Made by a program: the position numbers and the translations under genes. Positions 16,522 through 20,615 of a DNA stretch of 35,459 nucleotides are shown piece after piece. The DNA comes from Methanolobus sp. (GTDB lineage: Archaea; Halobacteriota; Methanosarcinia; Methanosarcinales; Methanosarcinaceae): assembly GCF_016278365.1 (NCBI RefSeq), contig NZ_JADQBZ010000012.1, positions 1 through 35,459 of the forward strand, read 5' to 3'. Position 1 is the stretch's first letter, and every line of letters starts with the position of its first letter. A model generated the notes under the pieces. It was not told the DNA's origin and did not search any database. It saw only the letters and a list, made by a program, of their open reading frames with translations.

Positions 16522-16609
16522 GCGGGAGTCGCCCAGCCAGGTCAAAGGCGCTAGATTCAGAGTCTAGTCTCGTAGGAGTTCGTGCGTTCGAATCGCATCT
16601 CCCGCACCA
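16522..16609 (+). tRNA. tRNA-Leu(CAG)
   Basis: A complete type II tRNA. The acceptor strands gcgggag (16522-16528) and ctcccgc (16599-16605) pair perfectly. The anticodon stem ctaga/tctag encloses ttcagag with anticodon CAG at 16558-16560, which reads CTG. A long variable arm and the T arm gttcgaatc follow. The discriminator A is at 16606 and CCA is encoded at 16607-16609. An AT-rich island begins immediately downstream. Confidence 0.96.
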
Positions 16610-16612
16610 TGA

Positions 16613-16618
16613 TTTTTT
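16613..16618 (+). terminator. T-tract terminator after tRNA-Leu
   Basis: A run of six T begins four nt after the encoded CCA, as expected for archaeal intrinsic termination after a tRNA gene. Confidence 0.5.
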
Positions 16619-16731
16619 GGGATATGGTTAACACAAATTTTATGTACGCTACTTTTTACATACACTTTCATTTCAACTTTATACACTGCAATGTTTTTTT
16701 ATATTAGTGGAATTGTAGAATAAAATAGAAA

Positions 16732-16742
16732 TGTATATATCC
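16732..16742 (+). promoter_or_regulatory. TATA box for the first island gene
   Basis: The sequence tgtatatatcc lies about 43 nt before the ATG at 16779. The implied short leader carries the ribosome site aaggtgg at 16768-16774. Confidence 0.45.
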
Positions 16743-16778
16743 TAAAAATTTTACACTCTCTATAACTAAGGTGGTCTT

Positions 16779-17216
16779 ATGAGAGATTTCTCGGTAGAAT
16801 TACCAACAAATTATAAAGCTGAAAACTATATTAAATTAAGTCCAGCTGAAAGGAAGTTGTTTGATAAATTTATAGAAGATCAGATTGCTTATAATCAATC
16901 ATTGGCTAAGGCATTTAGCAGCCAAGCAACCTCTTTTCATGAGGAAAAAGAAAAGATCTCTTATGAAAGAGCAGATTCGACTTACATACCATTTTTAGCA
17001 TATTGTTGGAGAGTGGCTGCTACAGCGATAGGTGGGTCAGTTGTTCTATTTGCAGCTATTTTCAGATTACCTCTTATTGAAGAAACACAATTACGAATCT
17101 ATGCAATAATAGTCTCATTTATAGCAGTAATCATGATTTTAGGATTATTTGTACCACTTCGACTACTTCCTAAAAAACCTCTATATAAAAAGGAAGATGC
17201 ACCTGAAACTTTATAA
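16779..17216 (+). CDS. Hypothetical protein with two C-terminal TM helices
   Basis: A 145-aa protein of unknown family. Residues 1-65 are soluble, helical and charged. Two TM helices follow, near residues 77-97 (VAATAIGGSVVLFAAIF) and 107-130 (YAIIVSFIAVIMILGLFVPL), and a short basic tail ends it (KKPLYKKEDAPE). The ATG at 16779 has aaggtgg four nt upstream. The next gene has the same plan (soluble helical N-terminus, two C-terminal TMs, PL..LP.K-type ending), so they may be distant paralogues or a membrane pair. No function can be assigned. Confidence 0.72.
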   Translation: MRDFSVELPTNYKAENYIKLSPAERKLFDKFIEDQIAYNQSLAKAFSSQATSFHEEKEKISYERADSTYIPFLAYCWRVAATAIGGSVVLFAAIFRLPLIEETQLRIYAIIVSFIAVIMILGLFVPLRLLPKKPLYKKEDAPETL

Positions 17217-17251
17217 TTAACGATTTATAATAAAATAAGGACTTGGGTAGC

Positions 17252-17647
17252 ATGTTCGATGATGAAAGATTTATAGACATTGAACCGGATGATATTAGTA
17301 ACTTAAGTTGTGAAGAAGGAGAAAAGCATTCACGTTTTAAGGCATATCTTCTTGGTTATTCTGATTCAGTCCAACAGCTTCAATCAGCAGAAGATGATGC
17401 TCTTCGCAAGTTTAAGCAAAGAAATACAATGTTAAAATCTGCGAACAAACAAATTCCAATTAGGGTTTATTTTGAAAAACTGGGATTATTTTTGCTGTTT
17501 GGTTTTATCTCTTCTTACTATATCCTAACATCAAATGAATTGCAAATAACACAATCTTATATCAAAATGTTTCTTTTTTTACTGCATATACTTCTTATAA
17601 TTATGGCTGTGTTCATTCCTCTTTTTGTCTTTCCCAACAAGCTCTAA
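17252..17647 (+). CDS. Hypothetical protein with two C-terminal TM helices
   Basis: A 131-aa protein of unknown family, 35 nt after the previous gene. An acidic N-terminus (MFDDERFIDIEPDD) and a helical region to about residue 65 precede two TM helices near 73-93 (LGLFLLFGFISSYYIL) and 104-127 (MFLFLLHILLIIMAVFIPLF). It ends VFPNKL, echoing the PLRLLPKK end of the upstream protein. A TTG at 17243 is in frame, but the ATG at 17252 is preferred, with aagga about ten nt upstream. It is probably co-transcribed with the upstream gene. Confidence 0.7.
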   Translation: MFDDERFIDIEPDDISNLSCEEGEKHSRFKAYLLGYSDSVQQLQSAEDDALRKFKQRNTMLKSANKQIPIRVYFEKLGLFLLFGFISSYYILTSNELQITQSYIKMFLFLLHILLIIMAVFIPLFVFPNKL

Positions 17648-17824
17648 ATCCCAATTAATCTAAATGAAGTTTGTTAATCAACTTTAAAACTAAACTGTTG
17701 ATTCTTCTTAATATTTCTATCTTTAATCTTCAAGTAAGCCAAAGTATTCAGTTGTAGGATTATCTTCACTTTCGAGCTTAATCTTAAATATTTCGTATGA
17801 CACTAAGCATAAACAAATAGAAAT

Positions 17825-17835
17825 CTTTTTATAAC
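17825..17835 (+). promoter_or_regulatory. TATA box for the 461-aa island gene
   Basis: The sequence tttttataacc lies about 60 nt upstream of the ATG at 17889. The predicted leader holds ggagat just before the start codon. The rest of the 240-nt gap from 17648 is AT-rich and shows no coding potential. Confidence 0.4.
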
Positions 17836-17888
17836 CTATAACTTTAAACAGAAACTGTCCTAATGAACATTACTGCCGGAGATAAATA

Positions 17889-19274
17889 ATGGCTTTAGAT
17901 GGAAGGGATTATACTAAAAGAGATAAAAATGGAAATATTGACTACTCGAAAAACATACATTCTAAAGACTTAGATGAATTTGTAAACGAATCCTATAAAG
18001 CTGCGTTGAATGATAAAGAATCCAATGCAAAATACTGTGAATATTGTAAAAAAGAACTTAAAACATCATATAATAGAGAAAAAGTCTTAAAAAATAGAAT
18101 TCAGGATGGCATAGTTTCTAGCTATTTTGTTAATGAAGTAATAGTGAAGTATGAATCTGAACAGTGTACAACGTGTAAAAAGTATTTTTGTCACGAGTGC
18201 ATGGATTCAGTTCGTGATATTAGCTATGATGCAGTGTTGAATGGTTTATGTCCAAAATGTTCAAAAAAATTTATAGGGCTGGTTAATGAAATTGAATACA
18301 ATTCTGCAATAAATAAATCAGAACCAAGTTGTTCCAAAAGAGATGATTTTGTAGAATGCAGACAAGCAGATTTAGTCAAGATTAAAGCCAAACTTGAACC
18401 AGTAATTCAACCACCATCTGAACCAGTAATCAAATCAAAACCAAAACCAGTAATTAAACCAGTAATTAAACCAAAAAAGTATGAAATTTCAGAATCCCAA
18501 TGCAAAGAACATACATATTCAAGAACACGGATAGGAAATGACTTCTCTGGAAGTCAATATGAGGGTGTATGCATTTATTGTGGGAATAAGAAACAAGACT
18601 CTGATTTTCCAATATTAAAGCACACAGGAGTACGGAAGAAATCAAATATCCCATATAGTAAGATCTTTACAATTCTTGCACTAATCTCAGTTTTATCGAT
18701 AATATGGTTTTATGGTGATGATATTTTTCCATCAGATGATTTTAATGAAAATGTGTTTAATCCTTCACTAGGCATAATTAATCTTAAAGCATCTGGCGAA
18801 CCTGTAGTTTTAATTAACAACGAATCTGCAACTAATCCAACATGGGATGAACTAATAACATTTTTGAAAACAGATGACACAGATAGGATTCTGTATAAAG
18901 ATGACGTTTTTGTATGTTCTGATTTTGCAGAAAGACTTCATAACAATGCTGAACAAGCAGGAATTAGGGCAGCTTTTGTTACAATATACTTCTATAGTGA
19001 CAGTGACGGACATGCTTTGAATGCATTTGAAACAACTGATAAAGGGTTAACATATGTAGACTGCACTGGTTCTGATGTTAAGTTACAAGAATTGGATAGC
19101 TTTGACAAAATTGCATACGTCGAAAAAGGGAAAGAATACGGCATTGTTTCTATACATTACACAAATACTCCTGAATACGAATTTTACGAACTACGTAAAG
19201 ATAATGTACGCCTCAGAGGCTTTTTTGAAAGTATGGGTGTTGTCAAAGAAGTAGATATATATTGGAAGTTGTAG
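17889..19274 (+). CDS. Zinc-finger, single-TM, transglutaminase-like protein (uncharacterised)
   Basis: A 461-aa mosaic protein. Residues 1-20 hold a tag (RDYTKRDKNGNIDY) shared with the small gene at 19343. Eight Cys follow in C-x2-C-x39-C-x2-C-x4-C-x2-C-x16-C-x2-C spacing (C50 to C124), the cross-brace pattern of FYVE/RING-like fingers. A Pro/Lys/Val linker (170-197, PVIKP repeats) leads to a C-x2-H/C-x2-C ribbon (C205, H208, C228, C231) and a TM helix at about 257-275. The C-terminal domain has a transglutaminase/cysteine-protease triad order: Cys343 (VCSDFAE), His375 (GHALNAF) and Asp391 (YVDCTG). The finger is likely cytoplasmic and the enzyme domain outside; this topology is inference. 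Substrate and function are unknown. Confidence 0.8.
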   Translation: MALDGRDYTKRDKNGNIDYSKNIHSKDLDEFVNESYKAALNDKESNAKYCEYCKKELKTSYNREKVLKNRIQDGIVSSYFVNEVIVKYESEQCTTCKKYFCHECMDSVRDISYDAVLNGLCPKCSKKFIGLVNEIEYNSAINKSEPSCSKRDDFVECRQADLVKIKAKLEPVIQPPSEPVIKSKPKPVIKPVIKPKKYEISESQCKEHTYSRTRIGNDFSGSQYEGVCIYCGNKKQDSDFPILKHTGVRKKSNIPYSKIFTILALISVLSIIWFYGDDIFPSDDFNENVFNPSLGIINLKASGEPVVLINNESATNPTWDELITFLKTDDTDRILYKDDVFVCSDFAERLHNNAEQAGIRAAFVTIYFYSDSDGHALNAFETTDKGLTYVDCTGSDVKLQELDSFDKIAYVEKGKEYGIVSIHYTNTPEYEFYELRKDNVRLRGFFESMGVVKEVDIYWKL

Positions 19275-19342
19275 TTTTCCGACATATTCAAGTAACTTTA
19301 GCAGAATTAAAAAAATGGTAACGACATTGATGGAGATTAACA

Positions 19343-19519
19343 ATGGGGCTAGCTGACAGGGATTATACAAAAAGGGATTCTAAAGGCAATATTAACTATA
19401 AAAGGGGTACGAATATCGAAGATTTCGCGCAACGAAGTTATGCCCAATCTGTGAAAAAACGGGATTCAAGCTTATACTCTAAAATAAAAAACAAGATTCG
19501 CAGATTATTGAGATTATGA
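19343..19519 (+). CDS. 58-aa protein sharing the RDYTKRD N-terminal tag
   Basis: A small gene with ATG at 19343 and tggag about eight nt upstream. It encodes 58 residues beginning MGLADRDYTKRDSKGNINY, which matches the start of the 461-aa protein (MALDGRDYTKRDKNGNIDY) and continues with a weaker match (DF...SYAQS against EF...SYKAA). It ends in a basic amphipathic segment, KIKNKIRRLLRL. It could be a stand-alone version of the tag domain or a truncated paralogue. The strong N-terminal conservation, with a start and ribosome site, argues that it is translated. Confidence 0.6.
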   Translation: MGLADRDYTKRDSKGNINYKRGTNIEDFAQRSYAQSVKKRDSSLYSKIKNKIRRLLRL

Positions 19520-19587
19520 AATAACGGCAGTGTTGAATATAATTTCTTCAAGTTGCAGCTAAATATGAGATTTCAGGAGAGAATGGC

Positions 19588-19830
19588 ATGGGGATTGACA
19601 GATTAATACTTGATCAAAAGGAAAAAAGCAAACAATCGATGGAACCTCAAAACATGAATCCGACTGAAACTTGCATAAATGAGGTGCCATTAAACCAACC
19701 GTTTAACAAGCAAACTGAAAATACTTCTCCGTCTCTTAAAAATAGAAAAAACGATAACATCGTCATTACAAGAAGTCCTGAACATCAAGAGAAGATTGAT
19801 AAGGTAAAAAGTATGCTCAATTTGAAATAA
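19588..19830 (+). CDS. Small polar hypothetical protein
   Basis: An 80-aa protein of unknown family. It has a short hydrophobic start (MGIDRLILDQKEK), an Asn/Pro/Thr/Lys-rich and probably disordered middle, and a C-terminal amphipathic helix (SPEHQEKIDKVKSMLNLK). The ribosome site aggaga at 19575-19580 lies seven nt before the ATG, which supports translation. It is the last gene of the island, 68 nt after the tag-only gene. About 200 AT-rich nt without coding potential follow, up to the flavoprotein gene. Confidence 0.5.
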   Translation: MGIDRLILDQKEKSKQSMEPQNMNPTETCINEVPLNQPFNKQTENTSPSLKNRKNDNIVITRSPEHQEKIDKVKSMLNLK

Positions 19831-20033
19831 CTTGTCTGGTTAATCCGTCCCTTGAAATTTGCTTTCCAGGCTCTGTAGACCTTGTTTTCTACTTTATTTT
19901 CATAATCACTTTAAATGATTAAACCCTTAAATATACTACAAAGTCATATATTCCCTATTATTTTATACTCTCATCTTCATACTCTACTTCGATTTAATTT
20001 ATAATCCTAATCACAAAAAGAGGAACCAACATC

Positions 20034-20615
20034 ATGAAAGTAATAGCAATAAACGGCAGCCCACGAAAAGAGGGCAACACAGCCGCTCTCCTGAAAGAGC
20101 TTCTTTCGGAGCTTGAGGGCGAGGGCGTGGAGACTGAGCTTATACACATAGGCGGGCAGAAGGTTCATGGATGCACTGCCTGCATGAAGTGCTTTGAGAT
20201 GAAGAACGGGCAATGCGTGTTCGATGACGACCCGATCAACGGGTGTATCGCGAAGATGAGGGAGGCGGACGGGATCGTTATCGGGTCGCCGACTTACTTT
20301 GCTGATGTGTCAACCGAGGTGAAGGCGCTGATTGACCGTGCGGGATTTGTGTCTATAGCGAACGGGGGCTTCCTTGCCAGAAAGGTGGGGGCTGCTGTGG
20401 TGGCCGTGCGCAGGGCAGGGGCGGTGCATGCTTATGATTCCATCAACCATCTCTTTGGGATATCCAATATGTTCACCGTGGGCTCTTCTTACTGGAACCT
20501 GGGGGTGGGGCTCAATCCGGGGGATGTGATTGATGACGCTGAAGGGATGCAGACCATGAGGGACCTGGCCTCCAACATGGCGTGGCTGCTGAAGAAGATT
20601 CATAATAATCCTTAG
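20034..20615 (+). CDS. Iron-sulfur flavoprotein (Isf-type, NADPH-dependent FMN reductase fold)
   Basis: A 193-aa flavodoxin-like protein. The FMN phosphate loop is NGSPRKEGNTAALL at the N-terminus, and a compact cluster motif C-x2-C-x2-C-x7-C (Cys47, 50, 53, 61) follows, as in Methanosarcina iron-sulfur flavoprotein. The segment GIVIGSPTYFADVSTEVKAL is typical of the family. Such proteins carry one [4Fe-4S] and FMN and accept electrons from ferredoxin, with proposed roles in oxygen or peroxide reduction. The ATG at 20034 has gaggaa about ten nt upstream. Composition returns here to the GC-richer chromosomal type. Confidence 0.92.
   Translation: MKVIAINGSPRKEGNTAALLKELLSELEGEGVETELIHIGGQKVHGCTACMKCFEMKNGQCVFDDDPINGCIAKMREADGIVIGSPTYFADVSTEVKALIDRAGFVSIANGGFLARKVGAAVVAVRRAGAVHAYDSINHLFGISNMFTVGSSYWNLGVGLNPGDVIDDAEGMQTMRDLASNMAWLLKKIHNNP

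Follow-up and report, generated by a model that had tools for sequence, protein, structure and literature searches.

Zinc fingers attached to membrane peptidases have precedents in archaea. In AN1-rhomboid proteins, such as Haloferax RhoII (PMC4343526), the N-terminus is a binuclear finger that lies in the cytosol, and the protease is an intramembrane serine enzyme of about six transmembrane helices. We observed one AN1 protein of ~290–310 amino acids in 27/27 Methanolobus genomes, and the one that was scanned has a rhomboid domain. A cytosolic finger combined with a transmembrane segment and a peptidase is thus a known archaeal theme. Two other groups of described proteins concern thiol-based domains. 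The fungal chimerolectins Marasmius oreades agglutinin (MOA) and Polyporus squamosus lectin (PSL) combine a β-trefoil lectin with a papain-like domain that has a Cys-His active site (PMC8244254), which in MOA comprises Cys215-His257-Glu274 with Ca2+/Mn2+. The transglutaminase-like superfamily, including DUF553 (PF04473) and PF01841, presents its Cys, His and Asp in that order, with the cysteine at the start of a helix and the other two residues on successive strands.

Within a 35,459-nucleotide window of a Methanolobus genome, we identified a gene for a protein, P0001, that follows the archaeal plan with different parts: one transmembrane helix, a predicted extracytoplasmic thiol domain and an eight-cysteine finger in place of AN1. 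A reading made from the sequence alone had described the finger spacing as better known from eukaryotes; given the AN1-rhomboid in every Methanolobus genome, the combination is less foreign to archaea than that implied. The assignment to archaea itself was borne out, as Methanolobus homologues place the window in that genus.

The P0001 gene (17889..19274, plus strand, as for all features of this gene given below) begins with an ATG at 17889, ~10 nucleotides after a Shine-Dalgarno-like GGAG, and continues for 461 open codons to a stop that ends at 19274. The encoded 461-amino-acid protein consists of an N-terminal tag, MALDGRDYTKRDKNGNIDYSKN (residues 1–22, 17889..17954), the eight-cysteine finger (residues 50–124, 18036..18260), a PVIKP-repeat linker (P171–P195, 18399..18473), a second ribbon with the ligands C205/H208 and C228/C231 (18501..18581), a transmembrane helix (residues ~256–276, 18654..18716) and a transglutaminase/papain-like (TG) domain (residues 296–461, 18774..19271). 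Its cysteines are residues 50, 53, 93, 96, 101, 104, 121, 124, 148, 157, 205, 228, 231, 343 and 392. The translation reproduces exactly the finger spacing given in the sequence-only reading, C-x2-C-x39-C-x2-C-x4-C-x2-C-x16-C-x2-C, and likewise contains the second ribbon, the linker, a single hydrophobic stretch, and C343, H375 and D391 at the positions that it had named.

Consistent with an N-in/C-out orientation, the hydrophobic helix (mean KD hydropathy up to 1.96) is preceded by a net charge of +3 and followed by one of –5. Many TG-domain homologues begin with a signal peptide or lipobox, as judged by reading their sequences, and a BACON domain is also found among them, which places the TG domain outside the cell. 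We infer from these features that P0001 is a single-pass type II membrane protein with the finger inside and the enzyme-like domain outside, in line with the sequence-only reading, which had put them on opposite sides and pointed to an extracellular modification.

The outer domain has the features expected of a transglutaminase-like fold. An AlphaFold2 model built from 41 sequences is confident (pLDDT 90.9, pTM 0.87) and places C343 (model residue 58) at the start of helix 58–71, H375 (model residue 90) at the start of strand 90–97 and D391 (model residue 106) at the end of strand 101–106 – the helix and strand placement of the superfamily. The top Foldseek matches of this model were the papain-like domains of MOA and PSL (probability 0.93–1.00, best rmsd 1.9 Å over 90 columns); LapG and vasohibins ranked below them. 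Because the E-values for these lectin domains are 0.02–0.1, we read these matches as an assignment of the modelled fold and not as close kinship. No E-value reached 0.001, the TM-scores are ~0.38, and P0001 has no β-trefoil lectin. The domain also weakly matches DUF553 (E 7e-4 to 3e-3, under the cut-off). DUF553 came near, and none of the members tested passed the cut-off of any Pfam or NCBIfam transglutaminase model (PF01841, PF04473 and kin); a comparison with the sequences of solved structures gave no useful direct match. The transglutaminase-like character proposed from sequence is thus upheld by the predicted fold and its papain-like structural matches.

Conservation of the putative active site was surveyed across homologues that were partly picked by the LHNNA motif beside C343; conservation of LHNNA is therefore biased, and the triad residues lie outside the search seeds. 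The predicted nucleophile, C343 (18915..18917), is a cysteine in 62/66 homologues and a serine in 4/66. H375 (19011..19013) is kept in 66/67 and D391 (19059..19061) in 65/66, and the cysteine adjoining the latter, C392, is also conserved (51/66). C343 is thus not universal, and the refuting result named in the sequence-only reading, homologues that lack a triad residue, occurred in part: three finger-less Methanolobus proteins (L006, L009 and L015) and a Chloroflexi protein (L080, which has Ser and Glu) carry serine for Cys343, and L015 additionally has tyrosine for His375.

Since four homologues have lost Cys343, part of the TG family works without it. One alternative is that the TG domain is a papain-like fold without activity, a binder of peptides or glycans, and that P0001 is a transmembrane receptor signalling to its finger. 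The four serine-bearing homologues, which keep the fold without the thiol, speak for such a role, but P0001 and 61 other homologues retain the cysteine, and the Methanolobus loss traces to one branch (support 97/90). Selection also argues against it: between P0001 and its orthologue in a second genome (G126), dN/dS was 0.13 for the TG domain. It was 0.19 for residues 1–128, so that both ends of the protein evolve under purifying selection. Because the copy in G126 is a broken one, both values are, if anything, upper bounds for an intact gene. We regard the receptor reading as distinctly unlikely for P0001 and favour a thiol enzyme. P0001 is a real, unannotated gene under selection.

As three of the four serine-bearing homologues fall in a single finger-less clade, we read L006, L009 and L015 as probable inactivated relatives, or pseudoenzymes. 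This Methanolobus clade (L005, L006, L009 and L015) keeps a degenerate form of the N-terminal tag, and only one of its sub-branches has serine for C343, so that the finger was apparently lost before the nucleophile. Although this is a single loss event, the order gives a hint of a functional link between finger and catalysis.

The TG family extends beyond Methanolobus. Profile searches recovered homologues from the Methanosarcinales, ANME-1 and other archaea, and a seed search recovered them from Chloroflexota. The N-terminal modules of these proteins are interchanged: the TG domain may be preceded by a finger of the AN1, eight-cysteine, C2H2-like or ribbon type, and in other members by a lipobox or signal peptide. 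The AN1 finger scored above the Pfam cut-off in 5/5 AN1-type members tested (L027, L052, L058, L104 and L109). These proteins share with P0001 a homologous outer domain, one transmembrane helix, an N-terminal finger and, in some, the tag, but bear zf-AN1 where P0001 has the eight-cysteine finger and C/H ribbon. A C2H2-like finger occurs in L012, ribbons occur in Chloroflexota members, and some members are fingerless. The eight-cysteine finger is fused to a TG domain in P0001 and in L013, which has two such fingers. In a tree that is poorly settled in this region, P0001 lies among Methanolobus sequences that include the AN1 form L027, within a larger AN1-bearing group. Intact fusions of this finger to a TG domain are restricted to the P0001 genome and one other (G022), a third being disrupted (G126), and TG-like genes of any kind occur in only 11/27 Methanolobus genomes. 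From this patchy distribution, the role of P0001 appears to be accessory and not core.

We compared the eight-cysteine finger (C50, C53, C93, C96, C101, C104, C121 and C124) with its relatives in a set of eight fingers from six Methanolobus genomes. All eight cysteines and the aromatic residue preceding the fifth (F100) are invariant in 8/8 fingers, which are 21–64% identical to that of P0001, and the spacing follows 2-(15 or 37–40)-2-4-2-(15/16)-2. A loosened form of the pattern arose in 0/200,000 shuffles of P0001 residues 1–250. Like FYVE, PHD and RING treble clefs, the finger has eight potential ligands and a C-x2-C-x4-C-x2-C-x16-C-x2-C second half. The FYVE profile (PF01363) scores all eight fingers, if weakly (best E 6.6e-5), and several also score IBR or RING. 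Every match of the P0001 finger to FYVE, RING and PHD-type profiles lies under the curated cut-off: FYVE gives 13.5 bits against a gathering score of 27.8, and zf-RING_2 gives 10–16 bits against 27.3. The best Pfam E-values for the P0001 finger itself belong to Zn_ribbon_19 and DZR, and comparison with the sequences of solved structures returned weak mixtures of RING, FYVE and C2H2.

An R(R/K)HHCR-type motif is the PI3P-binding hallmark of FYVE fingers. It is absent from 8/8 fingers, P0001 carrying SEQCTTCKKYFC instead, and together with the sub-threshold score this excludes membership of the FYVE family. RING identity was ruled out by the eight cysteines with no histidine ligand (C3HC4/C3H2C3) and by the lack of a curated match. 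The finger is also distinct from zf-AN1 (PF01428), ending in C-x16-C-x2-C and not in C-x4-C-x2-H-x5-H-x-C, with no AN1 match. Weak finger matches in Methanosarcina (L134–L141) were rejected as relatives of P0001 because they are other proteins, several of them FGE-sulfatase-like or TPR by reading. Among these, the large proteins L134, L136, L138 and L141 have a similar but distinct C-x2-C-x12-C-x2-C-x4-C-x2-C finger before FGE-sulfatase-like or TPR regions.

An AlphaFold2 model from the eight-sequence alignment (pLDDT 86.6) predicts a long hairpin (15+15 residues) from the first CxxC to the second, which is itself flanked by short strands (49–50 and 57–58 of the model), then a helix beginning at the third CxxC and another opening at the fourth. 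Binuclear treble clefs are ordered as a knuckle, a hairpin with ligands in its turn, and a helix at the third CxxC (PMC4999995); the predicted secondary structure fits this order, with the long hairpin as an insert. No match at E≤0.001 was found when the model was compared by Foldseek with the PDB and BFVD, serine integrases and MqsA being weak candidates. What stands of the FYVE/RING-like finger of the sequence-only reading is the FYVE spacing of the last six cysteines and a treble-clef-like secondary structure; curated profile scores, a significant structural match and the FYVE- or RING-specific residues do not accompany them.

The eight cysteines could be paired in two ways. In one, two zinc sites follow each other along the chain – a long-hairpin ribbon formed by C50/C53/C93/C96, then a site formed by C101/C104/C121/C124 – with no cross-brace. 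The modelled hairpin between the first two CxxC pairs, the integrase and MqsA candidates, and the leading Pfam E-values of Zn_ribbon_19 and DZR are all consistent with this arrangement. Against it, the strands around the second CxxC and the helix at the fifth and sixth cysteines follow the treble-clef order described above, the FYVE profile matches every family finger, albeit below its cut-off, and the x4 and x15–16 spacings are constant whereas the hairpin can shorten to 15 residues. On balance we consider interleaved, cross-brace pairing the more likely, and we hold the sequential arrangement to be possible but doubtful.

The gene neighbourhood bears on both the finger and the tag. Downstream of P0001, on the plus strand, lie a 58-amino-acid ORF (19343..19519) and an 80-amino-acid ORF (19588..19830), preceded by Shine-Dalgarno-like GGAG and AGGAGAG, respectively, and the order of the three genes is kept in G126. 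The first of these, likely cotranscribed with P0001, opens with a related tag, MGLADRDYTKRD, and ends in KIKNKIRRLLRL, a basic amphipathic C-terminus (moment test p ~0.03). Two membrane ORFs upstream of P0001 (16779–17216 and 17253–17647) were set aside as partners, as no counterpart was seen at the G126 locus.

The tag takes the form M-G/P-hydrophobic-x-DRDY-x-R/K. Besides TG-like proteins, its carriers are stand-alone fingers and small proteins associated with the membrane, and their genes often adjoin TG genes. A strict pattern was found at 10 places in 238 genomes of the class, compared with 1 for a reversed control; of the 10, two belong to fused TG proteins, four are neighbours of TG genes and two are stand-alone fingers. 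In genomes reached via TG loci, including Dehalococcoidia, the tag is again on or beside TG genes. Tag-bearing loci in archaea and Dehalococcoidia include that of the 58-amino-acid ORF (19343–19519), L144:1333–1524, L146:1501–1974, L074:4225–4482 and L092:4050–5525. The tag is not exclusive to the TG family, as shown by matches in G063 and G124, and there was one chance match in G547.

Stand-alone eight-cysteine fingers show similar associations. In G111 such a gene immediately precedes an AN1-TG gene, the two sharing a strand, and in two Methanolobus genomes (G006 and G015) one lies ~17 bases downstream of an unannotated multi-transmembrane protein gene (L038:4782–6132 and L039:6407–7727). 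The stand-alone proteins of L038, L039 and L041 also have, after the finger, a C-x-H...C-x2-C ribbon like the second ribbon of P0001. The G126 orthologue (L036:9059–11861) has a transposase-like ORF that splits the finger from a second finger, and a frame change before the transmembrane helix. The gene links in G111, G006, G015 and G126 tie the eight-cysteine finger to membrane proteins.

P0001 and its neighbours occupy an AT-rich island (16610..20000) of 30–33% GC, with flanks mostly at 45–53%. The island lies between tRNA-Leu(CAG) (16522..16609, plus strand), its left border, and a flavodoxin-like gene at 20034; a tRNA-Leu(CAG) also flanks the G126 locus. A low-GC stretch beside a tRNA gene makes the P0001 gene look acquired. 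One possibility is that it is carried by a mobile element inserted as an island at tRNA-Leu and serves that element in defence, exclusion or conflict and not the host envelope – a reading that would also suit the patchy distribution, the transposase-like ORF in the G126 copy, and the stand-alone fingers near an HSDR_N protein (G015) and a DNA-polymerase-like ORF (G006). We consider this unlikely, though not far-fetched: TG-domain relatives mostly sit beside ordinary chromosomal genes, and searches of IMG/VR, INPHARED phages and PLSDB plasmids, some of them with exact peptide seeds that reach mainly close relatives, found no match indicating a viral, phage or plasmid origin.

Taken as a whole, we judge with somewhat better than even confidence that P0001 is an N-in/C-out anchored surface thiol enzyme with an interchangeable cytosolic docking finger. 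Outside the cell, C343, H375 and D391 would together make up a thiol active site, whose most likely reaction is to cleave or transamidate amide bonds, of the peptide or side-chain kind, in envelope proteins; to our knowledge, no enzyme activity has been described for any member of this TG-like family. Inside, the C/H ribbon and the eight-cysteine finger, which is probably a treble clef with two zincs, would serve as an interchangeable docking module in place of the AN1 finger of relatives, binding a cytosolic or membrane partner and thereby positioning or regulating the enzyme. The tag, which P0001 has in common with the small membrane-associated protein of the neighbouring gene, is likely to dock to this partner as well. 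A broader extension, which we treat as a long shot, is that archaea and Chloroflexota share a modular system in which swappable cytosolic fingers and the DRDY tag recruit a shared factor controlling an extracellular TG-like enzyme, P0001 being its eight-cysteine form.

The general plan of a finger on a membrane peptidase was already known; new here are the unannotated TG-like family, the swapping of fingers on its TG domain, and the eight-cysteine form of the finger. The family is a widespread group of extracytoplasmic cysteine-enzyme-like proteins that no Pfam or NCBIfam model captures at cut-off. P0001 adds a probable non-eukaryotic two-zinc finger close to FYVE in spacing. The exchange of finger types on one membrane enzyme provides a natural experiment on the roles that cytosolic fingers of the AN1 and FYVE/PHD-like types play when attached to membrane peptidases of archaea.
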